DNA of 14,702 bases from Bacilli bacterium (lineage in GTDB: Bacteria; Bacillota_I; Bacilli_A; RF39; UBA660), in NCBI GenBank assembly GCA_022793565.1, contig JAAWDC010000106.1:1-14702 (forward strand). The letters are read 5' to 3'. Below, one piece after another: positions 1 to 12,066 of this stretch (position 1 is the first letter of the stretch; every line of letters begins with the position of its first letter). The notes under the pieces are model-generated. The model did not search any database. It was not told where the DNA came from and saw nothing but the letters and a program-made list of their open reading frames with translations. The position numbers and the translations under genes are program-made.

Positions 1-310
1 CCACCTGTACATCAAAAATAAGATGGGATAAAAATAAGATAAGAAAAACTCCTATCACCAAGTTACACAAAAAAAGAAAGTATTTTCTAAAATAGTACTC
101 GAGTTTAAAAACCCCATAATACCCAACAATATCAATTTGATAAACTGTTTTAATTTCCTTTATCTTTTGTAATCCTTCACGATCTACCAAAAGAATTACA
201 GAAGACTCTTCCCACTCTATTTTATGTAACTGAATATTCTTTCGATAAAGTGATCGAATAAAACGCTTTATATCTTTTCCAACTATTTTAATCTCATAAA
301 AATTATGCAT
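1..310 (-). CDS. yqfD: Sporulation protein YqfD, N-terminal part (cut by window edge)
   Basis: The reading frame starts at ATG 310 and stays open to position 1, giving about 103 residues; the rest lies outside the window. The start MHNFYEIKIVGKDIKRFI is preceded by AGGAG four bases upstream, inside the end of yqfC, and the two genes overlap by 8 bp. Residues 1-75 are soluble and alternate basic and hydrophobic stretches. A membrane segment begins near residue 80 (YFLFLCNLVIGVFLILFLS). This layout, a small cytoplasmic domain followed by a transmembrane helix, fits the YqfD family. In Bacillus subtilis yqfC and yqfD are adjacent, expressed in the mother cell under sigma-E and needed for efficient sporulation; the biochemical role is unknown. 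The name rests on position after yqfC and on the layout, since the diagnostic C-terminal part is missing. Confidence 0.8.
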   Translation of the reverse strand, partial: MHNFYEIKIVGKDIKRFIRSLYRKNIQLHKIEWEESSVILLVDREGLQKIKEIKTVYQIDIVGYYGVFKLEYYFRKYFLFLCNLVIGVFLILFLSHLIFDVQV

Positions 311-548
311 GATTCTCCTGTTTTAGTTCGATTAATTCTATTTTTCCACCAATTAAAATCTCACTATCTAATAGTTTCTTCACTCTTAAATTATCACCAT
401 GAATCACAATCGTACCATTAGGAGAAAGTAAAGAAACTTTTCTATCTTCCATATAATTAATCTTTATATAATTTTTAACATTCAACTGCTGCCTAAAATA
501 CTGAATTTGAAACTCTTCATCTAAAATATAGTTCCTGAGAAAAGACAT
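303..548 (-). CDS. yqfC: Sporulation protein YqfC (YabP/YqfC family)
   Basis: This 81-residue protein has the YabP/YqfC signature in its second half: a short beta-rich stretch (VSLLSPNGTIVIHGDNLRVK) followed by KKLLDSEILIGGKIELIEL. Family members are usually 80-100 residues, so it is full length. The start ATG 548 is preceded by AGGTGA at 558-553. The family is tied to endospore formation; YqfC is a mother-cell protein under sigma-E control in B. subtilis, with no known enzymatic activity. It overlaps yqfD by 8 bp and follows rpsU-yqeY, as in many Bacillota. It is separated from yqeY by an intrinsic terminator, and a sigma-E-like promoter lies directly upstream, so it is probably not part of the growth-phase rpsU transcript. 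Confidence 0.88.
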   Translation of the reverse strand: MSFLRNYILDEEFQIQYFRQQLNVKNYIKINYMEDRKVSLLSPNGTIVIHGDNLRVKKLLDSEILIGGKIELIELKQENHA

Positions 549-563
549 AAGATCACCTAATTC

Positions 564-592
564 AATGTATGAAAAAAAAAGACTTTTTATTA
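564..592 (-). promoter_or_regulatory. Candidate sigma-E promoter for yqfC-yqfD
   Basis: On the minus strand CATACATT (571-564) closely matches the sigma-E -10 consensus (CATACA-T). TAATAAA (592-586) lies 14 bp upstream and matches the kmATA core of the sigma-E -35. The predicted start site near 557 falls at the edge of the Shine-Dalgarno sequence, leaving a leader of only about 10 nt, which weakens the call. The -35 sits in the loop of the upstream terminator. Confidence 0.45.
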
Positions 593-602
593 GTCTCTTT
601 TG
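571..602 (-). terminator. Intrinsic terminator after yqeY
   Basis: On the minus strand the stem AGACT (596-592) pairs with AGTCT (584-580). It is extended by a G-T and several A-T pairs, has a 7-nt A-rich loop, and is followed by nine T residues (580-572). It ends the rpsU-yqeY transcript about 65 bp past the yqeY stop. Confidence 0.7.
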
Positions 603-664
603 TTATATATTCTTTTTTTCTAACGAAATAGCAAACTCCATATTCTATGGATTTCCATTTTAAA

Positions 665-1108
665 CTATAAATTTCCTAATTTTTCTTTGACCATTTGAGA
701 AACAATCCCCATATCTGCTTTTCCCTTTAATAAAGGTGTAATTACCCCCATAATTTTTCCCATATCCTTTAATGCAGTGGGTTTGACTTCCTGAAATGCA
801 TTCTCTACAATTTGTTCTATTTCCTCTTTAGATAATTGAGCAGGTAAATACGCATTTAAAATATCAATTTCAAAGTTTGTTTTATCAATCAAATCTTGTC
901 TAGCACCCTTTTCAAATTCTTTGACTGATTCTTTTCTTGTCTTGATTGCCTTACTTACGATTTCAATTAGCAAATCATCATTCATTTCTTTCTTTTGATC
1001 AATCTGTGCCAATTTTATACCTGACTTGATTTCACGAATCACTGTTAGCCGATCCTTCTCTTTATTTTTTAAAGCTTCTATCATATCTTTTTCTAATTTT
1101 TCTATCAT
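665..1108 (-). CDS. yqeY: GatB/YqeY domain protein
   Basis: This 147-residue soluble protein matches the YqeY family in length and pattern. It opens with helices that include RLTVIREIKSGIKLAQID, has an acidic middle (FEIDILNAYLPAQLSKEEIEQ; the LP-Q-LS-EEI pattern is typical), and a C-terminal part with KDMGKIMGVITPLLKGKADMG, the DMGKVM..L..KGKAD motif. The family resembles the tail domain of GatB, the amidotransferase that makes Gln-tRNA(Gln), and is thought to bind tRNA, but no reaction is established. The start ATG 1108 follows GGAGGGTAAAT. It sits 38 bp after rpsU, a pairing common across Bacillota. A hairpin terminator lies between them and no promoter fits in the gap, so expression probably depends on read-through from the rpsU promoter. 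Confidence 0.93.
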   Translation of the reverse strand: MIEKLEKDMIEALKNKEKDRLTVIREIKSGIKLAQIDQKKEMNDDLLIEIVSKAIKTRKESVKEFEKGARQDLIDKTNFEIDILNAYLPAQLSKEEIEQIVENAFQEVKPTALKDMGKIMGVITPLLKGKADMGIVSQMVKEKLGNL

Positions 1109-1129
1109 ATTTACCCTCCATTCTATTAG

Positions 1130-1156
1130 AAAAAGACTAATCTGAATTAGTCTTTG
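1130..1156 (-). terminator. Internal terminator/attenuator between rpsU and yqeY
   Basis: A perfect 10-bp stem (1155-1146 with 1141-1132) with a TCAG loop is followed by TTTTTC on the minus strand. The rpsU stop codon (1149-1147) lies in the 5' arm, so ribosomes finishing rpsU would cover the hairpin. It probably gives more rpsU than yqeY mRNA. Confidence 0.75.
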
Positions 1157-1347
1157 TTATTTCTTGCTTTATTTCTTCTGCGAGTATTTTTAATACCCTC
1201 TTTCTTAGCATTTCTACGTTTTACTCCTGGTTTATCATAACCTTCACGTTTCTTGCATTCAGAAGGGACTCCATCTCTAGCAACTTTTTGCTTAAACTTT
1301 TTCAGTGCGAATTCTAGATTTCCATTTTTTACTGCCACCTGTGTCAT
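1147..1347 (-). CDS. rpsU: Small ribosomal subunit protein bS21
   Basis: This 66-residue, very basic protein fits the bS21 family: VAVKNGNLEFALKKFKQKV near the N-terminus, then ECKKREGYDKPGVKRRNAKK, which matches the family pattern (KRE-YEKPS-KRKR), and an Arg/Lys-rich tail. S21 sits on the 30S platform near the anti-Shine-Dalgarno region and helps initiation. The B. subtilis protein is 57-58 residues, so this copy has a slightly longer basic tail. The start ATG 1347 has a strong GGAGGGG upstream. A consensus sigma-A promoter lies about 35 bp upstream of the start. It is the first gene of the rpsU-yqeY unit. Confidence 0.95.
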   Translation of the reverse strand: MTQVAVKNGNLEFALKKFKQKVARDGVPSECKKREGYDKPGVKRRNAKKEGIKNTRRRNKARNNKD

Positions 1348-1380
1348 TTTTTCCCCTCCTTCCGCGTTTCACTATGATTG

Positions 1381-1409
1381 ATTATAACGCAAAGTCCCTT
1401 ATTTTTCAA
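1381..1409 (-). promoter_or_regulatory. Sigma-A promoter of rpsU
   Basis: TTGAAA (1409-1404), a 17-bp spacer and TATAAT (1386-1381) on the minus strand give a near-perfect housekeeping promoter. The start is expected near 1374, giving a leader of about 27 nt that carries the GGAGGGG ribosome site. Confidence 0.88.
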
Positions 1410-1460
1410 CATTTTTTTCAACTTTTCTTTAAAAATCTATCTTTTACCCATCATTTCTAT

Positions 1461-1501
1461 TAAAGTTTTTGAGACTTTGACTTTTCAGTAATACTCTCAA
1501 A
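1461..1501 (-). terminator. Weak hairpin terminator candidate after the 180-residue gene
   Basis: TTTGAGA (1501-1495) pairs with TCTCAAA (1474-1468) across a 20-nt partly structured loop, and the tail is only AACTTTA. It sits 1-2 bp past the stop of the upstream gene and before the rpsU promoter. The poor T-tract makes it uncertain. Confidence 0.35.
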
Positions 1502-1502
1502 T

Positions 1503-2045
1503 TTAATTGAATTCTTTCAATTTAATAGCCTCTTTTGTAGAATTACGCAGATCAGGAACCTGATCAAAAGCATCTAAAATCTCTGTAGCTTCATATTCTT
1601 TTTGAAAACCAACTTCTTTTAATAAATAAGGCATTAAGCTTTCTTCATAGACTATTTGAATATTTTCCTCCGAAGATTTTAACACTAGAAAATTAGAATT
1701 CTGGAAAGTAACCATAGACCAATTTTTTTCGAAATCTATATAATGAGTCCTATTCGACCCATTATAAAGATAGTTCTCCACATACATTAATTTTTGAAAT
1801 AAAACGCCACTCTGCTCCAATACAACCACTTTTAAACATTCCGTTGCCTTTTCATAAGATAATGAACCAGTAATTTGATTATCATTATCATAACGTATAG
1901 CATTTCTATAAACAGAAACCATAGCTTTTGGTCCAGTAACTTGCTTATATATAAAAAATCCACAGAGTGCTATTGCTACAATACTTCCACCAATTTTAAT
2001 TTGTAAATTTTTAATTTTGCTTTTTCGTCCTGCATCTGCTTGCAT
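1503..2045 (-). CDS. Single-pass membrane protein of unknown function
   Basis: The 180-residue protein starts at ATG 2045 (MQADAGRKSKIKNLQIK). An upstream ATG at 2069 is unlikely because it overlaps the -10 element, while 2045 has AGGGAG seven bases upstream. The first 20 residues are short and basic. A transmembrane segment follows at about 20-38 (IGGSIVAIALCGFFIYKQV), and positive-inside charge places the remaining ~140 residues outside the membrane. The external part is mixed alpha/beta with several aromatic residues, no repeats and no cysteine pair suggesting a disulfide. I do not recognise the family. It is a single-gene unit with its own promoter; the hairpin after it is weak, so read-through into rpsU is possible. 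Confidence 0.8.
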   Translation of the reverse strand: MQADAGRKSKIKNLQIKIGGSIVAIALCGFFIYKQVTGPKAMVSVYRNAIRYDNDNQITGSLSYEKATECLKVVVLEQSGVLFQKLMYVENYLYNGSNRTHYIDFEKNWSMVTFQNSNFLVLKSSEENIQIVYEESLMPYLLKEVGFQKEYEATEILDAFDQVPDLRNSTKEAIKLKEFN

Positions 2046-2069
2046 AAAATCACTCCCTAAAACGTCCAT

Positions 2070-2098
2070 ATTATATCATAATTCCTTCTAATACACAA
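2070..2098 (-). promoter_or_regulatory. Extended -10 sigma-A promoter of the 180-residue membrane protein gene
   Basis: TATAAT (2075-2070) is preceded by TGA, giving the extended -10 form TGnTATAAT. A weaker -35, TTGTGT (2098-2093), lies at 17 bp. Transcription should begin near 2063, downstream of ATG 2069, which is the main reason for choosing ATG 2045 as the start. Confidence 0.75.
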
Positions 2099-2181
2099 TA
2101 ATGAACTACGGATCTACCTAGTACTTCATGAAAACATCTTAAAATCTTAATGTTATGTAACACTCCGCAAAAGAAAAATAC

Positions 2182-2210
2182 AAAAAGCATACACAAACTA
2201 TGTGTATGCC
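2182..2210 (-). terminator. Intrinsic terminator after the J-domain-like gene
   Basis: A perfect 9-bp inverted repeat (2209-2201 with 2195-2187) with a 5-nt loop is followed by TTTTTG on the minus strand. It lies about 125 bp past the stop at 2334. The AT-rich stretch 2211-2333 between stop and hairpin holds no ORF above a dozen codons and nothing else I can identify. Confidence 0.8.
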
Positions 2211-2333
2211 TAAATAAATTTTTATAAGTAAAGAAACATTTTTACCTTAGTAAAATTTATTGACTATAAATGAATGAAAAGTTACGATCTATCATAAGAT
2301 TTAGCTAAATTTTTCCACTACTGTCTTCTTTAA

Positions 2334-3140
2334 CTAATATAATTTCATTCTTTTATCTACTTCTTCTTCATCTACATTTTCAAAAATACTTTTTACATAT
2401 TCAGAATTCGCACGAAGATAATTGTGAATAATATCATAAGATTTTCTAAAGTCACATTCCAAAATTTTTCCATTGTGAATCAAGCCATGTGGAAAGACCC
2501 TAGATCCTAAAATAGCTGTAGACAAAATACCATTGGTACGAAAAATCTGTCCTTGAATCCATGGACGTTCAAACCAAGCCCATCTTATGTTATCAAATAT
2601 ATTCTGATAAGTAAAACAATCGCATAATGAAAAATGTGCTTCCTGATCTAATTCTCTAACTTTCCCAGTGTTTGGATCCTCCTTGTAAGCCGTCGTATAT
2701 CCAGAATAAATATCTTGAGCAAATAACAAAGAACTGTCCTCTCCAAAAACAATATAGACATCTTTTAATGGAATTTTCTTTCTAAACAGTTTGAATCTAC
2801 CTTTAGAAATCGCACTACCATACTTTTGAACAACTTCTCGATTGATAGAAGTAATAACATGACTTTGCGTCGCTTCAGGAACTGAAGAAATTAGCAATTC
2901 ATTTTTAGGCTTACTCCTTCTCCTTTCGAGTAGTTTTCCCCTCTCCTCAGGATCCATTAACTTTTTATAATGATAATGATAAATATTGATTAAATATTCC
3001 CCTTCTACATTCTTTCTGTTTGTATCTTCTCCACAAAACGTATCTATATGGAAACTGAAAGCTTTTTTAATCTCTGCTTCATCTGCATCCTCACTCAAAT
3101 GAAAAACATCAAAAGAATCCATTTCCTTCGTAATATTCAT
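2334..3140 (-). CDS. Protein with degenerate J-domain-like N-terminus, unknown function
   Basis: This 268-residue soluble protein starts at ATG 3140 behind a strong GGAGGGG. Residues 8-75 resemble a DnaJ J-domain in outline: FDVFHLSEDADEAEIKKAF looks like helices I-II, and the helix ending KKLMDPEERGKLLERRR matches the helix III-IV region (LsDPe-R--YD). The HPD tripeptide that activates Hsp70 is absent; the loop has HIDTFCGED instead, so co-chaperone activity is doubtful. Residues 75-268 are mixed alpha/beta with many aromatic residues and a short glycine-rich stretch (GILSTAILGSRVFPHGLIHNG), with no membrane segment. I do not recognise this second domain. The gene has its own promoter, a leader of about 165 nt containing a coupled small ORF, and its own terminator. 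Confidence 0.8.
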   Translation of the reverse strand: MNITKEMDSFDVFHLSEDADEAEIKKAFSFHIDTFCGEDTNRKNVEGEYLINIYHYHYKKLMDPEERGKLLERRRSKPKNELLISSVPEATQSHVITSINREVVQKYGSAISKGRFKLFRKKIPLKDVYIVFGEDSSLLFAQDIYSGYTTAYKEDPNTGKVRELDQEAHFSLCDCFTYQNIFDNIRWAWFERPWIQGQIFRTNGILSTAILGSRVFPHGLIHNGKILECDFRKSYDIIHNYLRANSEYVKSIFENVDEEEVDKRMKLY

Positions 3141-3247
3141 AATAACCCCTCCAAGTTAATTAACATATTCAACTTAATAACTTTCTTCATAGAGTCGCTT
3201 ATATCAGCCACTATCAAAAGTACCAAAATCTCTAATACTAAAGTCAC
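3137..3247 (-). CDS. Possible 36-residue hydrophobic leader ORF coupled to the J-domain-like gene
   Basis: A GTG-start ORF (3247) preceded by TAGGA four bases upstream runs to a TGA that overlaps the next start as ATGA. The peptide has a hydrophobic first half (TLVLEILVLLIVAD), then a basic amphipathic part (SDSMKKVIKLN) and LINLEGLL. The strong GGAGGGG of the downstream gene lies inside this frame, so terminating ribosomes would pass over it, a normal coupling arrangement. It could be a small membrane peptide or a regulatory leader. Against it: a GTG start, a modest Shine-Dalgarno, and the ease with which AT-rich DNA yields Leu/Ile-rich frames. No codon-level conservation can be tested here. 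Confidence 0.35.
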   Translation of the reverse strand: MTLVLEILVLLIVADISDSMKKVIKLNMLINLEGLL

Positions 3248-3312
3248 AGATTCCTAACCTTAATTTTCGTTTCTTAAATATATTACACAAAATTCCCCTA
3301 TAAAGCATTCAT

Positions 3313-3341
3313 ATTATACTATAATTCCCTTTAAAATGCAA
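3313..3341 (-). promoter_or_regulatory. Sigma-A promoter of the J-domain-like gene
   Basis: TATAAT (3318-3313) with TTGCAT (3341-3336) at 17-bp spacing on the minus strand. The -35 directly abuts the T-tail of the preceding terminator. The predicted start near 3306 leaves about 165 nt of leader. Confidence 0.68.
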
Positions 3342-3369
3342 CAAAAAGAACTGTTATACAACAGTTCCA
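3342..3369 (-). terminator. Intrinsic terminator of the bacteriocin-type operon
   Basis: The perfect 8-bp stem GAACTGTT (3367-3360) with AACAGTTC (3355-3348), a 4-nt loop and a TTTTTG tail lies just after the stop of the small membrane peptide gene at 3377. Confidence 0.82.
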
Positions 3370-3376
3370 AATAACA

Positions 3377-3535
3377 TCAACTTATTTGACGATACAGTAA
3401 ACGAAAAAAAGTCCCACTATATCTACCTAATTGAAAAAAACTAATTAGAAAATAATTAAGAAAATAACATCCAAATAAAACTGTTATTAGATAAATAAGG
3501 ATTTTAAATCCTTTGACTAAACCAGAAAATCTCAT
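3377..3535 (-). CDS. Small basic membrane peptide, possible bacteriocin immunity protein
   Basis: A 52-residue ORF starts at ATG 3535, overlapping the stop of the preceding peptide gene as ATGA, and ends 8 bp before the operon terminator. The N-terminus is short and basic (MRFSGLVKGFK), followed by a transmembrane helix at about 11-34 (ILIYLITVLFGCYFLNYFL) and a basic tail (GRYSGTFFRLLYRQIS). There is no double-glycine leader, so it is not a third exported peptide. Many class II bacteriocins have immunity proteins that are small basic membrane peptides encoded just after the structural gene. That position and shape support immunity, but sequence families of such proteins are weak and I do not recognise this one. 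Coupled translation would keep it in step with the peptides. Confidence 0.68.
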   Translation of the reverse strand: MRFSGLVKGFKILIYLITVLFGCYFLNYFLISFFQLGRYSGTFFRLLYRQIS

Positions 3536-3699
3536 AATGGACATAACGTATTTTCTGAAATTCTTCTAATAGCAGATCCAAGACTTCTCCCAAAAGAGAA
3601 AATAGTTTTCAATACTGTAGAAAAAGAATTAATCAGTGTTCCAGAAACACTAATTCCTCCTACAATTTGAATTAACTCTTGCTGCCCTACTTCACTCAT
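3532..3699 (-). CDS. Double-glycine leader peptide B (class II bacteriocin-type precursor)
   Basis: The 55-residue precursor starts at ATG 3699 with AGGAGG four bases upstream; an in-frame upstream GTG (3717) has no ribosome site and is not used here. Residues 1-15, MSEVGQQELIQIVGG, fit the leader pattern LS-xx-EL-xx-I-xGG that C39 exporters cleave after GG. The predicted mature peptide is 40 residues: a Gly/Ser/Thr-rich start (ISVSGTLINSFSTVLK), an amphipathic middle with three basic residues (FGRSLGSAIRR), and the tail SENTLCPL with a single cysteine. Such cationic amphipathic peptides normally permeabilise membranes of related bacteria, though signalling peptides use the same leader. It lies 8 bp after peptide A and overlaps the membrane peptide by 4 bp. 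A two-peptide (class IIb) system with peptide A is my inference. Confidence 0.85.
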   Translation of the reverse strand: MSEVGQQELIQIVGGISVSGTLINSFSTVLKTIFSFGRSLGSAIRRISENTLCPL

Positions 3700-3707
3700 A
3701 GTTCCTC

Positions 3708-3848
3708 CTAACCACACTTTTCTGGTCTCACAATTCCATCAAACACGCCAACAAGAAATGTACCAAGTGCAATAACTCCAGCAACAGTCCAAAAAGATAA
3801 TCCTCCTCCGTTAATTTTTTCTAATTCGTCTTCTGATAATTTTTGAAT
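3708..3848 (-). CDS. Double-glycine leader peptide A, apparent ATT start
   Basis: This short frame encodes a textbook bacteriocin leader (QKLSEDELEKINGG) and a 31-residue core beginning GLSFWTVAGVIALGTF, with the tail FDGIVRPEKCG. The core is hydrophobic and glycine-rich and has one cysteine next to the C-terminus. No ATG, GTG or TTG lies at a proper distance. The ATT at 3848 does: it is 7 nt after GGAAGGGGG and gives a 15-residue leader, the same length as peptide B. The only other in-frame start is GTG 3866, which has no Shine-Dalgarno in front and would add six residues. The frame overlaps the stop of the accessory gene by one base and ends 8 bp before peptide B. ATT starts are rare (known for infC), so either translation is deliberately weak or an ATG was lost. 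Confidence 0.78.
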   Translation of the reverse strand: MQKLSEDELEKINGGGLSFWTVAGVIALGTFLVGVFDGIVRPEKCG

Positions 3849-4261
3849 TACAAATCCCCCTTCCACAAATTAATAATTCGATCAAATATTGTATTTCTAG
3901 AAATCAAAATCCTACCAGAGATTATAGTCTCTTGGCACTCTTCCATCAACTGAAAATTTACTAAAATAAAAGTTGTGTTTTCAAATATTACTTGAGAATC
4001 AGTAATCACCTGTCTTGTATAACGATATTTTCCTTGATCAGTATAAAACACTCCCTCTGCTTTGATTTTACTAACACGATCAGTTGGTAAATAGGTTTGA
4101 TAAAGACCTGTTTCTGTTTTCATAATACTTAATGGAAAAGTAAGGTTTATTGGAATAGAAAAAAGGAAAAGCAAAAATAGAACAAGGAAAAGAATAACAC
4201 AAAAATAAAATCTATTTTGACCTGAGTCATTCTCTTCATGATAGTACTTAATTGTCCTCAT
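3848..4261 (-). CDS. Miniature HlyD/membrane-fusion-like accessory protein
   Basis: A 137-residue protein has a basic/polar N-terminus (about 1-17), one strong transmembrane helix at about 18-38 (FYFCVILFLVLFLLFLFSI), and a ~95-residue extracytoplasmic beta-rich domain. The region TDRVSKIKAEGVFYTDQG and the end TIISGRILISRNTIFDRIIN resemble the C-terminal beta-barrel of HlyD-type adaptors (D..KIK.G...; GM..-ARI....SI-D-L). Bacteriocin accessory proteins of this class are normally 400-plus residues with a lipoyl domain and long coiled coil between these parts; none of that is present. It overlaps the exporter gene by 14 bp and lies directly before the peptide genes, so a role beside the exporter is likely. 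The HlyD assignment is tentative, resting on position and short similarities. Confidence 0.65.
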   Translation of the reverse strand: MRTIKYYHEENDSGQNRFYFCVILFLVLFLLFLFSIPINLTFPLSIMKTETGLYQTYLPTDRVSKIKAEGVFYTDQGKYRYTRQVITDSQVIFENTTFILVNFQLMEECQETIISGRILISRNTIFDRIINLWKGDL

Positions 4262-6326
4262 TGATGTTTCCTTCCATTAAACATATTTTTCTTGTGAATA
4301 AATCCTGATTTCTTTCTCTGTGGGAAATCATTATCATCGTTTTATCTCGATATTTAGAAAATATTTTTTCTAAAATTGTACGCTCTCGAATTGGATCTAA
4401 TTCACTAAAACTTTCATCAAAAATATAAATAGAAGCGTTCTTGAATAAAGAGCGAGCTAAGATAATTCTTTGTCTTTCTCCTCCACTTAAATTATACCCA
4501 TTCTCCTCAATAATCCAATGATACCCTTCTAACTTTCCTTTTACCACTTCATCCACCATACAGAGTTTCCCAACTTCTAGTGTTTTTTCCAAAATCTCCT
4601 CATCCCGACTATAACTAATATTTTCTAATACCGTTGTACTAAATAGGTACCCTTTTTGTGGAACATATAAGATTTTTTCTCGAATGAAGGAAAGCGGATA
4701 ATTTTTAATATCGTTCCCATTGAATAAAATAGATCCTTTCTCTGGTTCTAAAATTCGCGATAACAATTTTGCTAAAGTACTTTTTCCCCCACCACTTTCT
4801 CCATAAATAAGTATCTTATCACCTCTTTCGATTCGTAAAGAAAGATCATTTAATACTCTGGCTCTCGCATTATAACTGTAAGATACTTTTTCTAAAACAA
4901 TGGTTTCTAAGCTTAATTTCAACATTTTCTTCTTCCCTAATAAATTCTCACTTGGTATTGATAATAATTCTCCAATATTTTTCCAAGCCTCCCGTGCTTC
5001 TTTGTATTCTAATTGAAAATTAAGAAAATGATGAAATGGATCTAGTAAATAGATACATAACGAATGATAAAAAATCAAATTCCCAATTGTCATATTCCCA
5101 TCCAATATGCAAATACTACAAAATACAAGTAAAGAAACTAAAAAAAGTTCCTCGATTCCTTTAGATAGTACCTGCTGTGTATTGCAGTTTCTAAGAAAAG
5201 CACATTGTCCTTTTTTATACCTATTGTATAAAAGAGAAAAAGTAGTTTGAAATCTTTGCTGATAGTTTAACGATTGAATAGCATCTATTCCAAGCAAACT
5301 CTCCATTAAATATGAATTCATTTTCTCTGCCTTCCTCTTTGCTTCTTTCAGCTTTACATTTCCTATAATTTGTAAAAAGAAAAGAATAAATCCAGAGATA
5401 CCAAAAAATAAAAATATTAAAAAGAGAATCTCCTTCCGTAATATTCCAAGAATACATAAAATAAGAAAAGAAAACGGAAGCTCAACAAAAAAAAGAAAAA
5501 TACTAGTAGGAAAAATAGATTCTAATTTTTCTAATTCCAATAACCTTGTAACAATTTCTCCAGTAGAATGATTTCTATAATACAAATATGGAAGTGATAA
5601 TAAATGTTGATAAACTTTCATATACATACATTTACCAAATTGATAAATTAGATCTTGAATCAAGTGAAATCGACATACTTGAAAACAACCCTTTATGAAA
5701 CTTAAACCCATAAATAAAATTACATAAGATAGCAAATTGTACTTTGAATGTAAAGAAACTACATACTCCATTAAATATTTTAGTTGGAAAGAACTCACTA
5801 GTTGTAAAAAAAATAGACCAAAGGAAAATAGTAAGAATAGTATAATTCGCTTCTTTTGAACAGTTAAAATAGTAAAAACAAAAGACTTAAGTTCTCTCGT
5901 AACTTCTATCTTAGGAATTTTCTTTCGGGGTGAAAAAATTAGAAAAACCTTTGTAGAAATTCTACGAAACTCCTCAACTGTCACCATTTTTAAAGAACTA
6001 GCTGGATCTGCAATTAAAATTTTCTTAGAGTTCACTTTGTATACAACTACATAGTGCGAATACTTACCATCTACCACCACATGAGCAATACAGGGCAAAT
6101 CTCTTTTACTTAATTCCAAAGTATCTCCCTTCACTCCAATTGCCGAGAAATTAAGTTTTTTTGCCGCCTCTATCAAATCATAAGCAGTAACTCCATCACG
6201 ACCAGTTCTTGTTAATTCCCTTAATCTTTCACGTGGAATATTTCCATGATAATAACGAATAATCATCAGTAAACAACTAATTCCACAATCTTTGGTAGTT
6301 TCTTGTTTAACAAAAGGTAGCTTCAC
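4248..6326 (-). CDS. Peptide exporter: C39 peptidase-ABC transporter (PCAT)
   Basis: The 692-residue protein has the three parts of a bacteriocin-processing ABC exporter. Residues 1-125 are a C39 cysteine peptidase with Gln8, Cys14 (KDCGISC), His91 (KYSHYVVV) and Asp107 (IADPAS) all in place; it cuts leaders after Gly-Gly. Residues 150-430 form a membrane domain of about six helices. Residues 470-690 are the ATPase: Walker A GESGGGKS (509-516), Q-loop Gln556, signature LSGGE (613-617), Walker B IYIFDE with Glu638, and His669. Walker A has Gly where Ser is usual (GxSGSGKS), which should be tolerated. The start is GTG 6326, behind AGGAAGTGA. Length and domain order are standard (about 700-720). 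It heads a coupled operon with the two GG-leader peptides it presumably cleaves and exports. Confidence 0.95.
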   Translation of the reverse strand: MKLPFVKQETTKDCGISCLLMIIRYYHGNIPRERLRELTRTGRDGVTAYDLIEAAKKLNFSAIGVKGDTLELSKRDLPCIAHVVVDGKYSHYVVVYKVNSKKILIADPASSLKMVTVEEFRRISTKVFLIFSPRKKIPKIEVTRELKSFVFTILTVQKKRIILFLLFSFGLFFLQLVSSFQLKYLMEYVVSLHSKYNLLSYVILFMGLSFIKGCFQVCRFHLIQDLIYQFGKCMYMKVYQHLLSLPYLYYRNHSTGEIVTRLLELEKLESIFPTSIFLFFVELPFSFLILCILGILRKEILFLIFLFFGISGFILFFLQIIGNVKLKEAKRKAEKMNSYLMESLLGIDAIQSLNYQQRFQTTFSLLYNRYKKGQCAFLRNCNTQQVLSKGIEELFLVSLLVFCSICILDGNMTIGNLIFYHSLCIYLLDPFHHFLNFQLEYKEAREAWKNIGELLSIPSENLLGKKKMLKLSLETIVLEKVSYSYNARARVLNDLSLRIERGDKILIYGESGGGKSTLAKLLSRILEPEKGSILFNGNDIKNYPLSFIREKILYVPQKGYLFSTTVLENISYSRDEEILEKTLEVGKLCMVDEVVKGKLEGYHWIIEENGYNLSGGERQRIILARSLFKNASIYIFDESFSELDPIRERTILEKIFSKYRDKTMIMISHRERNQDLFTRKICLMEGNINEDN

Positions 6327-6346
6327 TTTATCACTTCCTAATTACT

Positions 6347-6376
6347 ATTATTTATAAAACTACCAATGTCGTCCAA
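6347..6376 (-). promoter_or_regulatory. Possible promoter of the bacteriocin-type operon
   Basis: TTGGAC (6376-6371) and AATAAT (6352-6347) are 18 bp apart on the minus strand, between the coat-gene terminator and the exporter. The predicted start near 6340 leaves a very short leader before the AGGAAG site. I see no repeat pair typical of peptide-pheromone response regulators. Confidence 0.4.
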
Positions 6377-6383
6377 AAAAATA

Positions 6384-6412
6384 GAAAAAAAAACGAGATT
6401 AACTCTCGTTTT
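6384..6412 (-). terminator. Intrinsic terminator of the coat gene pair
   Basis: AACGAGA (6410-6404) pairs with TCTCGTT (6398-6392), with a 5-nt loop and a run of T on the minus strand (6391-6385). The stop codon of the CotF-like gene lies in the loop, so the gene ends inside its own terminator. Confidence 0.83.
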
Positions 6413-6722
6413 CTAATGTCTGTAACTCGCTTTCTAAGCAGTTTATTTTTTCCTGAATTTTTGTCTCTTCAGCTTCTTCTAATGAATACCAACCAAGACG
6501 AAATGCTAAATCATAGCACTCTCTAGCAGCATCTTTCAAATCCTCCATCATTGCGAAAATATCTTCATAAAGATCCCCATTACTAGCTTCATCCAAGACA
6601 ACTGCTGTATTATTAGACATACTCTTTTCTAACTCCAAAATACTGTTTAAATAATCCTTATCATTCATTTGTAAACTCTCTTTACAAGGAGTTTTAGGAT
6701 TTTCTATTTTATTCTGATTCAT
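6399..6722 (-). CDS. CotF-type spore coat protein
   Basis: The 107-residue protein is chosen to start at ATG 6722, nine bases after GGAGG and overlapping the previous gene by 14 bp; the longer open frame upstream is only the Lys/Arg-rich shadow of the acidic tail. Residues 20-80 match the Coat_F pattern: a start like DKDYLNSILELEKS, then EASNGDLYEDIFAMMED and the closing LGWYSLEEA (family: EK-l...Ea.n..lR..l..il.....y..M...GWY). This folds as a ferritin-like helical bundle. CotF proteins are structural parts of the spore coat or inner coat layers in Bacillota, made late in the mother cell. The final 25 residues form a charged helix. It is the second of a coupled coat pair closed by a terminator. 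Confidence 0.83.
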   Translation of the reverse strand: MNQNKIENPKTPCKESLQMNDKDYLNSILELEKSMSNNTAVVLDEASNGDLYEDIFAMMEDLKDAARECYDLAFRLGWYSLEEAEETKIQEKINCLESELQTLENES

Positions 6723-7086
6723 CTTCATCTTCCTCCATCTCATCATCATCGTCATCAGAGTACTCCTCTTCAGAATCTTCCTCTTCAGAGTCCTCTTCTT
6801 CTTCAGAATATTCTTCGTCCTCGGACTCCTCTTCACTATCTTCTGTATCGCAACAATCATCAGAACATTCTTCCTCAGAAAGATCTTCCTTCCTTAAAAT
6901 AGCAAGAATCCAAGCCATATGCTGATAATGCATTTCTGAAAGACTCTGGAAAAGTTCCTGAATCTCCTCATTTTCCACCTCATTACTAAAATGTACTAAT
7001 TGTTTAAATGCTGTAAAATTCCAATGAAACATATCTTCTAAGTATGATAAATCTTTAGTTGAAATCATTTTTGGTACTGTATCCAT
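6709..7086 (-). CDS. Coat-associated ferritin-like helical protein with long acidic tail
   Basis: Start ATG 7086 (MDTVPKM) lies nine bases after a perfect AGGAGG; an in-frame GTG at 7104 overlaps that site and is rejected. Residues 7-65 form two or three helices with the pattern STKDLSYLEDMFHWNFTAFK and a helix ending EMHYQHMAWILAIL. This resembles small ferritin-like proteins encoded next to CotF-type genes in clostridia and relatives. Residues 69-125 are almost entirely Glu, Asp and Ser, with three cysteines (74, 78, 79) at the start of the tail. The first part suggests a coat or coat-associated role. The tail could bind calcium or other cations, or hold the protein extended between layers, but no function is known. 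No sigma-E, -G or -K promoter was recognisable upstream. Confidence 0.75.
   Translation of the reverse strand: MDTVPKMISTKDLSYLEDMFHWNFTAFKQLVHFSNEVENEEIQELFQSLSEMHYQHMAWILAILRKEDLSEEECSDDCCDTEDSEEESEDEEYSEEEEDSEEEDSEEEYSDDDDDEMEEDEDESE
6712..6882 (-). repeat. Low-complexity purine-rich tract encoding the acidic tail
   Basis: About 170 bp with the minus strand almost all purine with T, built from irregular GAA/GAG/GAT/TCA/TCT codons. Short units encoding DSEEE or EEYS recur imperfectly. Such tracts change length by slippage, so tail length may differ between strains. Confidence 0.7.
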
Positions 7087-7136
7087 TTTTTCTTTCCTCC
7101 TCACTTCTATTTTGATCCCCTTTAATTAATTTCATA

Positions 7137-7165
7137 CAAAAAAGTCTAAAAATTTAGACTTTTTT
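7137..7165 (-). terminator. Intrinsic terminator after the CmpB-type gene
   Basis: A long, nearly perfect palindrome (7138-7150 with 7153-7165) centred on AGTCT/AGACT has A-tracts on one side and T-tracts on the other, so it can act in both directions. On the minus strand it ends the 7173-8024 gene 7 bp past its stop. Confidence 0.82.
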
Positions 7166-7172
7166 AAAGATA

Positions 7173-8024
7173 CTACCATTTTTTTAAATCATATAACTTC
7201 TTCTTTAATCGATCTCTCTTCTTAGAACTCTTTGCCCTTTCCAATTGAAGTTTCAATTTCTCTATTCGACGACGATTTTTTTCTCTCATCTTTTCTATTT
7301 TTTTCAAATACTTTCTACTTTCTTTTTCAATTCTCTCTAAACTAATACGAAGCATATTAGTAATTTGCACTCCTGTACCAGAACGTATCTGCAATTTTGG
7401 AAAAACTTTAAATAGCCTTCGAAAGAAAAATACATACTGTGATAAAAATTCTCGAACTTGTGCATCAACTTCACTTGTAGAATCCTTCCTAATATAATTA
7501 AATCTTAATTTCAACCGATTCAAAATCGTAAAAGACAGAATATTATCCACCAAGTACAATGAAAAAACAAAACCAGTAACAAAGATTAAAATATTTTGAG
7601 GAATCTGTTGAATCAATAACACATAATTAGGATGAATAAAATAAATAAAAACAAGTCCTAAAACGCCAAAAAGAAAAGAATTGAATAAGCAAATACGTCC
7701 TTCAATATTAAACTTCCGATTAGAATAATCCCACCATCTCATACGAAAAATCTTTTCCATCAAATAACTAGTAACATATTCTAAAATAGAAGTTCCAACC
7801 ATTGCCATAACAAATAAAATAAGAGGTGCATTTTGATATTGCTCCAAGAAAAAATACATATATAAAGCACCACACCCATAAATAGAACAATAAGGTCCAA
7901 GTAAAAAACCACGATCACAAACTAGTTTTCGATCATAAATAGAACAAAAGACACACTCGACAAACCATCCCATAATTGAATAACTAAAAAAAAGAAATAA
8001 AATAAAACAAATAGAATAAAGCAT
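7173..8024 (-). CDS. CmpB-family membrane protein (putative ABC transporter permease type)
   Basis: The 283-residue protein shows the ABC_trans_CmpB family pattern (PF06541). An N-terminal helix carries GWFVECVF, then CDRGFLLGPYCSIYGCGAL (family GFL-GP-CPIYG-G), EYVTSYLMEKIFRMRWWDYS, and FNIEGRICLFNS (family N--GRI-L--S). There are about five hydrophobic helices in residues 1-165. The last ~60 residues are a highly basic coiled coil (Arg/Lys/Glu heptads, e.g. KKIEKMREKNRRRIEKLK) on the cytoplasmic side. Despite the family name no ATPase partner is nearby and no transport substrate is established. The start ATG 8024 has AGAGGTGA upstream. It is a single-gene unit between two terminators. Related proteins are common in gut Bacillota; the coiled-coil tail may bind an unknown partner or nucleic acid. 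Confidence 0.85.
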   Translation of the reverse strand: MLYSICFILFLFFSYSIMGWFVECVFCSIYDRKLVCDRGFLLGPYCSIYGCGALYMYFFLEQYQNAPLILFVMAMVGTSILEYVTSYLMEKIFRMRWWDYSNRKFNIEGRICLFNSFLFGVLGLVFIYFIHPNYVLLIQQIPQNILIFVTGFVFSLYLVDNILSFTILNRLKLRFNYIRKDSTSEVDAQVREFLSQYVFFFRRLFKVFPKLQIRSGTGVQITNMLRISLERIEKESRKYLKKIEKMREKNRRRIEKLKLQLERAKSSKKRDRLKKKLYDLKKW

Positions 8025-8045
8025 TGATTCACCTCTACTTACTCA

Positions 8046-8074
8046 AGTATAAAATAATTTATTAAAAAAAGAAA
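8046..8074 (-). promoter_or_regulatory. Weak promoter candidate for the CmpB-type gene
   Basis: TATACT (8051-8046) is a fair -10. At 17 bp the only -35 is TTTCTT (8074-8069), inside the preceding terminator stem and T-tail. No better choice exists between the terminator and the start, so this or read-through must drive the gene. Confidence 0.3.
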
Positions 8075-8093
8075 GGCAGAAAGATGCCTTTCA
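8063..8093 (-). terminator. Intrinsic terminator after the PBP gene
   Basis: GAAAGGCA (8092-8085) pairs with TGCCTTTC (8078-8071), with a 6-nt loop and seven T residues, directly after the PBP stop at 8100. It shows that the division cluster ends here rather than running on into mraY. Confidence 0.87.
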
Positions 8094-8099
8094 AAATCA

Positions 8100-10250
8100 C
8101 TACTCATTATATTTAGGTTGAAAAATAAGATGAATAGAAGTCTCAGAATTTACAACAGTTCCTTCTGAAAGACTTTGACCGACCAGATACCCATTACCCT
8201 CTAACGTATAAGGAACCTGAATCAAATCAAGATAAGTTTTCACGTCCTTTTTACTCCAACCAGCGAAATTAGGAAGTGTATAACAAACACCATTTGTAAT
8301 TAGATAAACTTTACTTCCCTTAGATAATGTAACCTTTTCATTCGGAACTTGCGATACAACCCTATCTCCATCTCCAATGACTATAACATTTAATCCATTA
8401 ATTTGTAAGGCTGTCCTTACCTTTTCTACACTTTGATTAATATAATTACCAACTTCATGATGAGTTACAACAGAAGCTTCTTCAGGACCATTATAAATAT
8501 TATAGTACTTACTAACATTCTCAACGACCTCTTTTACCACACTAACTAAAGCATTAGGGGTATTGGGATTTGGACGCTTTAGATTTGCATAAATAATGAC
8601 CTGAGGATCTTCCTTAGGAAACATTCCTGCAAAACCACGAATAACATCATTCTCACCCTTTAAATATCCTGTTCCGTTTTCACTAGAAATTTGAGCAGTT
8701 CCTGTTTTAGCTATAATATTATACCCGTCCATATAATAAGAACTACCTGTTCCATCTAAAACTACTTGCTCCATCAATTCCTTCATCTTATCTGTTGTCT
8801 GCTTACTCGCCACTCTGCCTAATTCTTCCCTTGTATTTTGCATGATAACATTTCCATCATTATCTACAATACGGTCTACAATATAAGGTTTTAATAAAAT
8901 ACCATCGTTGGCAATTGAAGTTAAAGCCTGAATATTTTGAAGAGAAGTTGTCATAATACCTTGTCCAAAACCTGCATTTAATACTTCTGTCTCATATTTA
9001 AAATTTAATTTACCAGAAACTTCTTGACTAAGTTCGATACCCGTTTTTGAACCAAAACCAAGTCTCTTATAATAATCTTTCAAAATTTCTCGATTCATAT
9101 ATTTATCAATTAAATTAACGACCCCAATATTACTAGATAATGCAAAGCCGCGATCGTATGTGATATACCCCCAACCTTCTCTTTTCCAGTCACCAATTTC
9201 AGTTCCATCGGTTGTTGTATAAGTTCCAGACTTAAAGGTTTCTTCCCCGTTATATTTTCCAGCCTCCATTGCTGCCATATAAGAGAAAATTTTCATTGTA
9301 CTACCAGGCTCTATAGCAACAGATATATTAGGGTCCAAGTAAGAACTCAAATTTCGTAAATTAGGATCAAAAGAAGTACTAGAACTCAATCCTAAAATCT
9401 TTCCTGTCTTTGCATCTGCAACTACAATATTTAATTGATCAAAACTATAATTTTCTTTCGCATTTTCTAAGGCTTGCTCAATAAAAAACTGTACATTTGA
9501 ATCAATCGTTAAATAAATATCATTTCCATCTACAGCCTCTTGAATTTGCTCTTGAGTATTCACAATTTTATACCCACGTAAATCCTTTTGATACTCACGA
9601 TACCCATCTCTACCTGTTAATTCATTATTAAATAAAGATTCAATACCAAGCTCTCCAATAATTTTACCCTCTTCATTTAATTTAGCATACCCCAAAGTAT
9701 AAGAAAGAAAATCTCCCTTTGGATAATATCTCTTTTGAGTTTCAATAAAATCAATTCCTGGTAAATTTAAAGCAACGATTTTTTCCTTGGTTAACTCTGT
9801 TAACCCCTTTCCTTTAGAACCAAACTCTACTTGATAAGGAGATTCTCCATTACTATTTTTCCGATTCAAATAAGATAAAATCTGATTCTTATCTAGATCA
9901 ATTACAGTAGATAATTTCTCTGCTGTCATCTCTTTATCAATTACATAATTTTTTTTACCTCGAGATTCCGCAAGATAAGCAATTAATGTATAAGAATATA
10001 CATTTTGTGCTAAGGCCTCTCCATTCACATCATAAATTGTTCCACGCTTTGCCAAAATAGCATCATGTGCTGTTGTTCTAGAAGACGCAAACTTCTTCAA
10101 ATCTCGTCCATCAATCTCATCAGATAAGGCTAAAAACCCAGCTCGATATAGGAAAACTGCAAATAGAAAAAACGTAAAAAGAAGCAAAAGGTTCGCAGTA
10201 CGTACTTTAGTATCTACTTTTCTTTTCTTTTTTTCCTTCTTTTTAGTCAT
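8100..10250 (-). CDS. pbpB: Class B penicillin-binding protein with two PASTA repeats (PBP2B/SpoVD type)
   Basis: Starting at ATG 10250 (MTKKKEKKKRK) the protein has 716 residues: a short basic cytoplasmic end, a transmembrane helix at about 19-37, the dimerisation domain (about 60-230), the transpeptidase domain (about 240-580), and two PASTA repeats (about 597-654 and 655-710). Active-site motifs are present: STMK with Ser317 and Lys320, SSN at 372-374, and KTGT at 515-518. It crosslinks peptidoglycan at the division septum, or at the spore cortex in the SpoVD branch. Gene order after ftsL favours the division enzyme, but with no second copy here it may do both. The open frame extends 40 codons further upstream, through the ftsL terminator and the -35/-10 of a sigma-A promoter. 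The upstream ATGs are therefore unlikely, although ATG 10250 itself has a poorly spaced ribosome site (AAAGGATGTG) and GTG 10262 is an alternative. Confidence 0.92.
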   Translation of the reverse strand: MTKKKEKKKRKVDTKVRTANLLLLFTFFLFAVFLYRAGFLALSDEIDGRDLKKFASSRTTAHDAILAKRGTIYDVNGEALAQNVYSYTLIAYLAESRGKKNYVIDKEMTAEKLSTVIDLDKNQILSYLNRKNSNGESPYQVEFGSKGKGLTELTKEKIVALNLPGIDFIETQKRYYPKGDFLSYTLGYAKLNEEGKIIGELGIESLFNNELTGRDGYREYQKDLRGYKIVNTQEQIQEAVDGNDIYLTIDSNVQFFIEQALENAKENYSFDQLNIVVADAKTGKILGLSSSTSFDPNLRNLSSYLDPNISVAIEPGSTMKIFSYMAAMEAGKYNGEETFKSGTYTTTDGTEIGDWKREGWGYITYDRGFALSSNIGVVNLIDKYMNREILKDYYKRLGFGSKTGIELSQEVSGKLNFKYETEVLNAGFGQGIMTTSLQNIQALTSIANDGILLKPYIVDRIVDNDGNVIMQNTREELGRVASKQTTDKMKELMEQVVLDGTGSSYYMDGYNIIAKTGTAQISSENGTGYLKGENDVIRGFAGMFPKEDPQVIIYANLKRPNPNTPNALVSVVKEVVENVSKYYNIYNGPEEASVVTHHEVGNYINQSVEKVRTALQINGLNVIVIGDGDRVVSQVPNEKVTLSKGSKVYLITNGVCYTLPNFAGWSKKDVKTYLDLIQVPYTLEGNGYLVGQSLSEGTVVNSETSIHLIFQPKYNE

Positions 10251-10289
10251 ACCTTTTTTCACATCCTTTGCTTTCCTATTTTCTATTTT

Positions 10290-10318
10290 ATTATAACAAC
10301 TATCAAAGATCTTTTCAA
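10290..10318 (-). promoter_or_regulatory. Sigma-A promoter of the PBP gene
   Basis: TTGAAA (10318-10313), a 17-bp spacer and TATAAT (10295-10290) on the minus strand. It lies just after the ftsL terminator and inside the upstream open extension of the PBP frame. The start near 10283 makes ATG 10250 the first sensible ATG. Confidence 0.78.
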
Positions 10319-10347
10319 ATTTTTTCATATGAAATCTTTTCCATTGA

Positions 10348-10374
10348 CAAAAAAAATGGCCATTGGCCATCTTT
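10348..10374 (-). terminator. Intrinsic terminator/attenuator between ftsL and the PBP gene
   Basis: ATGGCC (10370-10365) pairs with GGCCAT (10361-10356) across a 3-nt loop. It is extended by A-T pairs to about 11 bp and followed by eight T residues. It begins at the ftsL stop and separates mraZ-rsmH-ftsL from the PBP gene. Confidence 0.8.
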
Positions 10375-10667
10375 TATTCCGTAATCTTTTTAATGTTACG
10401 ATTATTATAAGTTAACCCTTGCTCCTTAGCCACTTCTTGAATCTTATCTAAAGAAGCAAGTTCATTGATCTTCATAGTCAAACTCTCATTCTTTTTCTCT
10501 TGAATACTTATTTTCTTATTCATTTTTTCAACTTCAAAATTAATTTCAGAAAGTGTTGCTTGAGAAAATACCAATGCGAAAGGTAACGCAATTACCATAA
10601 CAATAGTAAAAGCATAAATCAATCGCTCAAACTTAGACATTTTCAAACGCTTCTTTACCTTCCGCAT
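10374..10667 (-). CDS. ftsL: Cell division protein FtsL-like
   Basis: The 97-residue protein starts at ATG 10667, nine bases after AAAGGAG; the in-frame TTG at 10676 is too close to that site. It has a basic cytoplasmic end (MRKVKKRLKMSKFERL), one transmembrane helix at about 18-38 (IYAFTIVMVIALPFALVFSQA), and an extracellular leucine-zipper-like coiled coil (EINFEVEKMNKKISIQEKK and onward) ending with the family-typical DKIQEVAKEQGL (family: p-ie--A--lGM). FtsL scaffolds the septal synthase with DivIC/FtsB. Sequence is poorly conserved in this family, so topology and position between rsmH and the PBP gene carry the call. The gap to rsmH is 25 bp. Confidence 0.88.
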   Translation of the reverse strand: MRKVKKRLKMSKFERLIYAFTIVMVIALPFALVFSQATLSEINFEVEKMNKKISIQEKKNESLTMKINELASLDKIQEVAKEQGLTYNNRNIKKITE

Positions 10668-10692
10668 CAGTCTCAACTCCTTTTTATTCTTT

Positions 10693-11616
10693 TTACCTAA
10701 TTCGCTCTATAATCCGTAATTTGGAAGAACGACTTCGAGCATTTTCTTCTAACTCTAAATTGCTTGGAGAAATTGGTTTTGTTGTAACTAACCTATAATC
10801 TGGCAAATACTCTTCTGGAATATTAGGTAACCCCTTTACCTTAGAATCGATCTCTGTTAAAGAACGAAAAAGGTTTTTAACAATTCGATCCTCCAAAGAA
10901 TGAAAGGTAATTACACAAAGTCTCCCACCAACTTTAAGCATACAACTAGCATCTTTTAAACTCTGTTCTAAAATCTCCAACTCATGGTTTACTTCAATGC
11001 GTATTGCCTGAAAAACTTTTCTAGCTGGATGTTTTTCTCTACTGTACTTCTCAGGAACAGAATGCTTAATAATCTCTACTAATTGTAAGGTAGTCTCAAT
11101 TTTTTTCTCTTCTCTAGCGCGGACAATTCCCCTTGCAATACTATTAGAATACTTTTCTTCCCCATACTGAAAGAAAATTCTAGAAAGTTCTTTTTCTGAA
11201 TATAGATTAACAACATCGTATGCTGAAAATTCTTGTTCTTGATCCATTCGCATATCTAACCATGCATCTTGATGATAACTAAATCCTCTTTCAGCCTCAT
11301 CTAATTGTGGAGAGCTTACTCCAAGATCAAAAAGAATTCCATCTACCGCATCCACATTCAGTTCTTGTAATTTCTCTTTCATATGTGAAAAATTACTCTT
11401 AATAATTGTAAAATTAGATCCTATTTCTTCTAACTTTTTCTTAGAATATAAAATTGCATTTTGGTCTTGATCAAAGGCGAAAAGTGAACCCCTTTTTATT
11501 CTCTTTAGTATTTCACCCGAATGACCAGCATAGCCCAATGTGCAATCCACATAAGTTCCATCCTCTTGGATATTCAAACCATCAATGGATTCTTGTAATA
11601 AAACACTTACATGCAT
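10693..11616 (-). CDS. rsmH: 16S rRNA (cytosine-1402 N4)-methyltransferase RsmH
   Basis: Start ATG 11616 ([14 protein letters not shown]) follows AGGTGA by 5 bp; an in-frame GTG 11625 overlaps the ribosome site and is not used. At 307 residues it is close to the usual 310-315. It methylates N4 of C1402 in the 16S rRNA decoding centre using SAM. The SAM-binding loop is [16 protein letters not shown], with Cys-Thr-Leu-Gly-Tyr-Ala where DGT-GRGG is most common. Further motifs are [41 protein letters not shown], and [10 protein letters not shown] near residue 240, all standard for the family. It lies 9 bp after mraZ, as in almost all dcw clusters, and is presumably cotranscribed with it under MraZ control. 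Confidence 0.96.
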
Positions 11617-11625
11617 TAGTCTCAC

Positions 11626-12066
11626 CTACTCCCCACCAAAACTCTGAGAAAACAAATTTTCAGCGATAGCAGACATATCATCAATATTACTATCCATAAA
11701 TTGATTCCAACTATCTTCATTCCAAATCTCAAGACGATCTCCTACTCCAATAATAATACAATCCTTTTTTAAAGCGGCATAAGAGACAAGTGGAGATGTA
11801 AGGTTAATACGACCTTGCTTGTCTAATTCTACAACCGTAGCACCTGATAGGAAAAATCTTGAAAAATTACGGGCATCTTGTTTAGTAAATGGTAAAGTTC
11901 CAAGTTGGCTTACAATCTTATTCCACTCATCCATAGAATAAACAAATAAGCAAGCCTCTAGTCCTCTTGTAACCACAAACTTCTCTCCAAGCTCTACGCG
12001 AACTTTAGAAGGAATAATAATTCGGCCTTTTTCATCAATTGTATGATGATACTCTCCCATCAACAT
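11626..12066 (-). CDS. mraZ: Transcriptional regulator MraZ
   Basis: The start is placed at ATG 12066 (MLMGEYHHT), six bases after GGGGG; ATG 12060 (MGEYHHT) is the alternative, and an upstream GTG at 12099 lies in the operator. The 146 residues hold two SpoVT/AbrB-like halves, each with the MraZ DxxGR core: EYHHTIDEKGRIIIPSKVR (about 5-23) and VELDKQGRINLTSPLVSYA (about 80-98). It forms ring-shaped oligomers that bind spaced short repeats ahead of its own operon and repress the division cluster. Four such repeats are present here between the -10 and the start codon, so direct autoregulation is expected. It ends 9 bp before rsmH. Confidence 0.96.
   Translation of the reverse strand: MLMGEYHHTIDEKGRIIIPSKVRVELGEKFVVTRGLEACLFVYSMDEWNKIVSQLGTLPFTKQDARNFSRFFLSGATVVELDKQGRINLTSPLVSYAALKKDCIIIGVGDRLEIWNEDSWNQFMDSNIDDMSAIAENLFSQSFGGE

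Follow-up and report, generated by a model that had tools for sequence, protein, structure and literature searches.

A candidate two-peptide (class IIb-type) bacteriocin operon, core to the bacterial family UBA660 and probably coupled to competence

The window analysed here is a stretch of 14,702 nucleotides (contig JAAWDC010000106.1 of assembly GCA_022793565.1, positions 1 to 14,702 of the forward strand) from a Bacilli bacterium of the family UBA660 (GTDB lineage Bacillota_I; Bacilli_A; RF39), and it carries a compact operon of five genes encoding a C39 peptidase-ABC exporter, a miniature accessory protein (ACC), two precursors with double-glycine (GG) leaders (Pep1 and Pep2) and a small membrane peptide (SMP) (Table 1). 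A sequence-only reading of this DNA had described a two-peptide bacteriocin-type operon with its own exporter, lying between two terminators, and the observation is confirmed. All five minus-strand open reading frames (ORFs) are present, terminator-like hairpins stand on both sides (a scan of positions 2200-8200 found three hairpins, against 1.5 in shuffled sequences with a standard deviation of 1.2), both leaders have 15 residues, the cores of 31 and 40 residues hold, and the C39, ABC-membrane and ABC-ATPase domains are found in the exporter. The start of Pep1 alone had to be corrected, being probably ATT and not ATG, GTG or TTG. That the operon is more than a chance arrangement follows from 13 of 16 same-genus relatives, which have all three of exporter, Pep1 and Pep2. 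Two outcomes named in the sequence-only reading as refuting it, a lack of homologues with conserved leaders and a substitution ratio near 1 in the peptide genes, are thus not what is seen.

Table 1. Position and main properties of the parts of the operon and of its associated features in the window.
Feature	Position	Strand	Properties
C39 peptidase-ABC exporter	4248..6326	(-)	692 aa, GTG start; Pfam C39 2.3e-34, ABC_membrane 1.7e-21, ABC_tran 2.4e-27
ACC, miniature membrane-fusion-like accessory protein	3848..4261	(-)	137 aa; single helix and beta domain
Pep1 precursor	3708..3848	(-)	putative ATT start; TIGR03949 23.2 bits
Pep1 leader	3848-3804	(-)	15 aa, GG type
Pep1 core	3803-3711	(-)	31 aa; GxxxG is GVFDG; Cys 30
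Pep2 precursor	3532..3699	(-)	profile in 135/145 family genomes; resembles CbnX
Pep2 leader	3699-3655	(-)	15 aa, GG type
Pep2 core	3654-3535	(-)	40 aa; GxxxG is GRSLG; Cys near C-terminus
SMP, small membrane peptide, predicted immunity protein	3377..3535	(-)	52 aa; C-terminal half Pep2-like
Promoter region	6327..6387	(-)	-10-like AAATAAT or similar, as in same-genus relatives (comparison by eye)
Upstream terminator-like hairpin	6388..6414	(-)	hairpin scan
Downstream terminator-like hairpin	3347..3368	(-)	hairpin scan
rpsU (ribosomal protein S21)	1147..1347	(-)	TIGR00030 52.5 bits, cut-off 28.95; downstream neighbour of operon in relatives

The exporter contains the sequences DCG, SHY, DPA, GESGGGKST, LSGGERQR and FDES, which we take to be its C39 and ATPase motifs, and scores 371 bits with TIGR01193 over residues 11-691, which is below the curated cut-off of 523.85, with the same domain make-up. 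ACC was judged membrane-fusion-like by its fold, and Foldseek alone gave no match for it below E 0.001. Along nearly their whole length, the exporter and ACC resemble the mycoplasma Mbov_0121 exporter and MAG1140 (NF045998, NF045999), with matches below the curated cut-offs (294 of 500 bits and 20.6 of 35, respectively). Regarding the start of Pep1, ATG, GTG and TTG are absent at the expected position, and the likely start is an ATT (3848-3846) located six bases past a Shine-Dalgarno-like GGGGGA (3860-3855) and overlapping the TAA of the accessory gene by one base. This start is favoured because of the Shine-Dalgarno-like element and of a similar layout seen in three close relatives (L038-L040); an alternative in-frame GTG at 3866 is without a good Shine-Dalgarno sequence. 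Further on, the ATG of SMP overlaps the stop codon of Pep2. Examined by eye, the exporter apparently starts at ATA or ATT in five other loci (L156, L164, L173, L178 and L181), and these recurring non-canonical starts, of Pep1 in the window and three relatives and of the exporter in several, each follow a strong Shine-Dalgarno sequence.

The two peptides have the features of a class IIb bacteriocin: different peptides encoded side by side, GG leaders together with a C39-ABC exporter whose C39 domain would cleave them, an accessory export protein and a GxxxG motif in both cores, such a motif or one like it being common to class IIb peptides according to the accessible parts of two published accounts (PMC8538875, PMC6957408). 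The bacteriocin-type reading also draws support from the Pep2-like SMP and from the family to which Pep1 belongs. Indeed, Pep1 of the window matches TIGR03949 (class IIb lactobin A/cerein 7B) over residues 3-40 with a score that passes the curated cut-off of 21.5, and this model is matched at E 0.01 by 27 of 36 Pep1 members and by 4 of 36 Pep2 rows; Pep1 is conserved across the 36-row alignment. For Pep2 of the window, no NCBIfam or Pfam family was matched at E 1, and a profile search of solved structures with Pep2 and Pep1 returned nothing significant. Scanning named genomes with a DNA pattern yielded 75 loci, every one in a metagenome-assembled or uncultured record. Of their Pep1 cores, 73 contain GxxxG, as against a mean of 43 and a highest value of 53 after shuffling; of their Pep2 cores, all 75 contain it, as against a mean of 22 and a highest value of 33. 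Each core has at least one cysteine, and exactly one in 70/75 Pep1 and 72/75 Pep2, such that an intermolecular disulfide would be possible. The peptide genes are clearly under purifying selection: in eight pairs, not all independent, the ratio of non-synonymous to synonymous substitution rates (dN/dS) is 0.046-0.27 for Pep1 and 0.053-0.34 for Pep2, that is, about 0.05-0.34 and not near 1. For comparison, the exporter gives 0.08-0.26, ACC 0.19-0.57 and SMP, with four of its five pairs computable, 0.19-0.47.

The similarity between SMP and Pep2 gives a first indication of how the producer may be protected. In SMP of the window, which has one hydrophobic segment, the part behind this transmembrane segment resembles the C-terminal half of Pep2. 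With hhalign, 34 selected SMPs aligned with 36 Pep2 over 35 columns with a probability of 95% (E 2.5e-8), as against only 0.3% for the same SMPs with Pep1, and 11 same-genus SMPs alone reached 62% with Pep2 (E 7.8e-5). In a set that was not chosen by motif, namely 49 loci with a hydrophobic ORF of 30-62 residues after Pep2, GxxxG[ST]xx[RN] is present in 43 of the ORFs (mean of 0.02 after shuffling), while the Pep2 C-terminal profile scores above 5 bits in 31 of 49, versus 1 of 980 shuffled and none of 49 reversed sequences. Because its C-terminal half resembles Pep2, SMP is probably a decoy-type immunity protein, and a Pep2 decoy binding Pep1 would be the simplest mechanism consistent with this similarity. 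Second Pep2-like matches are also seen beside Pep2 in a few operons (L156 at 3214 and 3384; G061:C2; G051:C19), which would be compatible with SMP having arisen by duplication.

Among the closest known systems is carnobacteriocin XY with CbnZ from Carnobacterium maltaromaticum, in which, as the excerpts of its published description indicate, a GG-leader pair is followed by a short immunity gene with one transmembrane segment, as here (PMC6957408). Its immunity protein, CbnZ, is proven as such, with 42 residues, an N-in/C-out topology and about 250-fold resistance (PMC6957408, in part). Pep2 aligns with carnobacteriocin X (CbnX) (KTIFSFGRSLGSAIRRI / QTIFSAGQKLGNMVGKI), which scores 10.6 bits with the Pep2 C-terminal profile, none of 2000 shuffles being as good; between CbnY and Pep1, no similarity was found. 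The 42-residue ORF after the CbnX gene, most likely CbnZ, ends in FIGRSIGSLF, the same GxxxG block as in SMP. Profile support for the likeness of this ORF to SMP is only suggestive, with 77 of 2000 shuffles as good against the SMP profile, whereas against the Pep2 C-terminal profile the match is better (1 of 2000). CbnX is plasmid-borne in both records found, and the 3.1-kb stretch examined is without an annotated exporter, whereas the present operon has one.

The distribution of the operon indicates that it belongs to the family as a whole. Exporter orthologues, 36-67% identical, were found in 13 of the 16 same-genus genomes; Pep1 and Pep2 follow the exporter in all 13, and rpsU is found further on in 11, the operon lying near a contig end in the two others. 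Across the family, the Pep2 profile has matches in 135 of the 145 genomes sampled, which represent 134 of 144 genera, and in 107 of the 112 genomes of good quality. It matches 183 of 193 genomes of an order sample, in which every listed genome belongs to the same family. When genomes were drawn from the whole class, it matched 35 of the 38 belonging to the family and 7 of the 258 others (E 3e-5 to 8e-3). A further draw, using a family-wide profile, gave matches in 11 members of the family and in 26 of 284 other genomes, the latter at E 1.5e-7 to 9e-3. Since these matches outside the family cover mainly the leader, we draw no claim from them; in 16 stretches around GG-leader matches outside the family, the hit frames have 63-141 residues and no full exporter is adjacent, with ABC ATPases in three. 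Within the 75 loci, Pep1 directly precedes Pep2 in all, the exporter precedes the peptides in 73 (the other two begin at a contig end), and rpsU and yqeY lie downstream in 52 and 44, respectively, some flanks being too short. In 42 loci, pairwise distances track those of YqeY (rho 0.61 for the exporter, 0.56 for Pep1 and 0.51 for Pep2; 0 of 500 permutations as high for each). To us, this points to an operon passed on vertically and lost now and then, and the best reading is of a chromosomal operon, core to the family, instead of a patchy accessory bacteriocin.

We re-examined 16 genomes, 15 without a Pep2 match and one (G008, 53% complete) without an exporter orthologue, of which 15 were without a Pep1 match and 11 without a C39 match. 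Seven genomes at least 90% complete (G011, G013, G096, G116, G140, G177 and G178) have no match for Pep2, Pep1 or C39, and some absences fall near contig ends, with short C39 frames in G063, G081 and G139. Comparison of empty sites found rpsU in only four of the eight genomes queried, so that the absences may reflect either excision or assembly gaps.

The sequence-only reading held that control of the operon must be simple or distant; this can now be sharpened for the relatives only, whose exporter promoters resemble that of comEA. Upstream regions were compared with the sigma-H promoter consensus of Bacillus over 15 positions, a strict match requiring at least 13. Among 67 exporter upstream regions (66 named loci and the window, several closely related), 39 reach at least 13/15; the corresponding share is 10.7% among dinucleotide shuffles and 7.9% among 557 upstream regions taken as controls. 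Sigma-70 promoters upstream of the exporter are not above mononucleotide shuffles. An unsupervised motif search in 63 exporter upstream regions returned AAGAAGGAAATT, and this motif scores 19 comEA upstream regions, outside the training set, above 333 controls (p 1.8e-5), as it does, less strongly, the 17 exporters of the same genomes (p 0.011). To compare the two promoters within genomes, 30 genomes were picked by hand, mostly for contig room, from the 128 in which comEC was matched; 22 of them gave usable pairs. In the first 16 pairs, comEA and exporter upstream regions of the same genome are alike (p < 5e-5), with 13 beating all two to seven controls from the same genome (p 6e-6 against 61 controls); six pairs tested later gave p 0.0045 (four of the ten additional genomes had no usable pair), and all 22 together p <= 5e-5 by permutation. 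The two regions are near-identical over about 30 bases in G158 and G110, with little shared in G060, G064 and G112. Pep2 and comEC also co-occur: across the 145 genomes both are present in 124, comEC only in 4, Pep2 only in 11 and neither in 6 (Fisher p 1.7e-4), and among genomes at least 90% complete the corresponding counts are 101, 1, 6 and 4 (p 1.6e-4). As for the sigma factor, TIGR02859 matches 145/145 genomes, none reaching the cut-off, and 10 of 14 control genomes as well, which argues for a sigma-H-like factor at most. Because the operon and comEA have the same type of promoter in the family, activation of the operon most likely accompanies competence. Five reduced genomes (G075, G128, G071, G052 and G054; 0.5-1.0 Mb), although without a SpoIVA match, still have the sigma-H-like match, comEC and Pep2.

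Altogether, our preferred explanation, to which we assign a probability of roughly 0.6, is a vertically inherited two-peptide (class IIb-type) bacteriocin coupled to competence, by analogy with CibAB/CibC of Streptococcus pneumoniae. The latter, in the published portions consulted, is a two-peptide bacteriocin with an immunity factor expressed with comEA/comEC (PMC5295010, PMC6560143), and cibA, cibB, cibC, comEA and comEC appear in the gene table of the ComX regulon (PMC6560143, in part). The two systems are likened by description; unlike CibAB/CibC, the operon described here encodes an exporter and an accessory protein of its own, and promoters and co-occurrence in relatives are the basis of its link to competence. 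By homology, the C39 domain of the exporter would cut both precursors after GG, and the exporter and ACC would release the 31- and 40-residue peptides. Pep1 and Pep2 would then pair via their GxxxG helices, perhaps with a disulfide between the conserved cysteines, and permeabilise neighbouring cells. SMP, bearing the GxxxG half of Pep2, could occupy Pep1 as a decoy and thereby shield the producer, and the whole operon would come on during competence, so that neighbours are killed or lysed for their DNA, a step suggested by the promoters of the relatives and not of the window. The more pointed proposal, of a core competence-regulated killing system whose immunity is a membrane-anchored decoy of its own toxin peptide, we hold only tentatively and at somewhat less than even odds.

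Several observations weigh against this explanation. It is unusual for bacteriocin peptides to be near-universal and to change slowly. An SMP-type ORF was retained in only 49 of the 75 loci and was not found in three same-genus relatives (L043, L045 and L047), and SMP is no more similar to Pep2 of its own operon than to Pep2 of other operons when own and mixed pairs are compared. In 20 chosen genomes, the strict sigma-H count is weak, at least 13/15 being reached by 6 of 19 exporters and 3 of 20 comEC operons, with shuffles at 14.6% and 12.5%, respectively, and gene starts misplaced for several of the comEC operons. The window itself has no sigma-H-like site, the best match of its exporter being 10/15; as in most of the 12 same-genus relatives shown, its promoter is without an AGGA element and has AAATAAT or CATAATT as a -10-like sequence instead. 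comEC was not found in the window's genome, which is 76% complete, and is present in the same-genus G004. Finally, the counts of Pep2 and comEC are uncorrected for phylogeny, their association depends on 10 Pep2-less genomes, and SpoIVA also associates weakly with Pep2 in genomes at least 90% complete (p 0.017).

Among alternative explanations, the two peptides might be pheromones that members of the same species sense in order to time competence or entry into stationary phase, with a C39-ABC transporter exporting them in the way that ComAB exports the pneumococcal competence-stimulating peptide (CSP). We consider this unlikely, even though the peptides are near-universal and conserved, with a single Pep2 match in 129 of the 135 genomes that have any, the exporter promoter is like that of comEA, and C39 exporters do process pheromones, as with ComAB/CSP in the accessible part of PMC5295010. 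No kinase, regulator or receptor gene was recognised in the window, among the part of its ORFs that was searched; furthermore, the operon includes an accessory export protein, and paired GxxxG peptides accompanied by a Pep2-like membrane peptide do not make up the layout of a pheromone system. Less probable still is that the peptide pair has a housekeeping or developmental role in connection with sporulation or the cell envelope. This view finds arguments in the neighbourhood, where yqfC- and yqfD-like genes occur and a CoatF-domain gene lies directly upstream (in 6399-7104, a stretch that also encodes a strongly acidic protein), and in the presence of SpoIVA in 123 of 145 family genomes. Against it, 19 of the 22 SpoIVA-less genomes keep Pep2 (p 0.18 across the 145 genomes), and the CoatF neighbour and acidic protein are there in only 3 of 13 same-genus loci compared. 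As to a recently acquired, ordinary accessory bacteriocin cluster, with neither shared control nor a role across the family, the operon gave no match in some genomes of at least 90% completeness and is hence dispensable or missed there, but its occurrence across genera, its recurrent rpsU neighbour and its YqeY-like distances already largely refute this least probable of the alternatives.

Around the operon and beyond the family, further features were seen. In six loci (L040, L041, L043, L045, L047 and L048), an ORF of 122-166 residues with a DLRxLIxKxDxE-like motif lies between the operon and rpsU. In small genomes of the class, probably mycoplasmas (L209-L224), proteins carry a GG leader of similar type, which an ISGALLNGIA-like stretch often follows, and no full C39 exporter is present in the stretches fetched. 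In the window, an identification of the ORF at 14018-14527 as ytxC found no support, as this ORF gave no family match.

Within open-licence PMC full text, we found no literature on these peptides, and the large class II bacteriocin atlas IIBacFinder, known to us from part of its text, may list the precursors as candidates (PMC12648078). Two-peptide immunity proteins are described as membrane-associated and their mechanism is called a mystery in the available passages of two papers (PMC8538875, PMC6957408), while here tens of operons carry the toxin motif in the putative immunity peptide. With the toxin's own interaction motif located in that peptide, a decoy mechanism becomes directly testable and, if true, the same principle could account for other short immunity proteins, CbnZ among them. 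The system described here is probably a class IIb-type system core to the family and coupled to competence, with a Pep2-like membrane peptide; as the operon is family-wide, often at the same place and with a comEA-like on-switch in several relatives, this suggests a built-in rather than an optional weapon. If a bacteriocin is core to a family, fixed close to a single locus and linked with competence, a trait regarded as strain-specific becomes a defining feature of an uncultured lineage. The same reading predicts that members of the family are naturally transformable and, if it is true, DNA harvesting by fratricide would be ancestral in this lineage.

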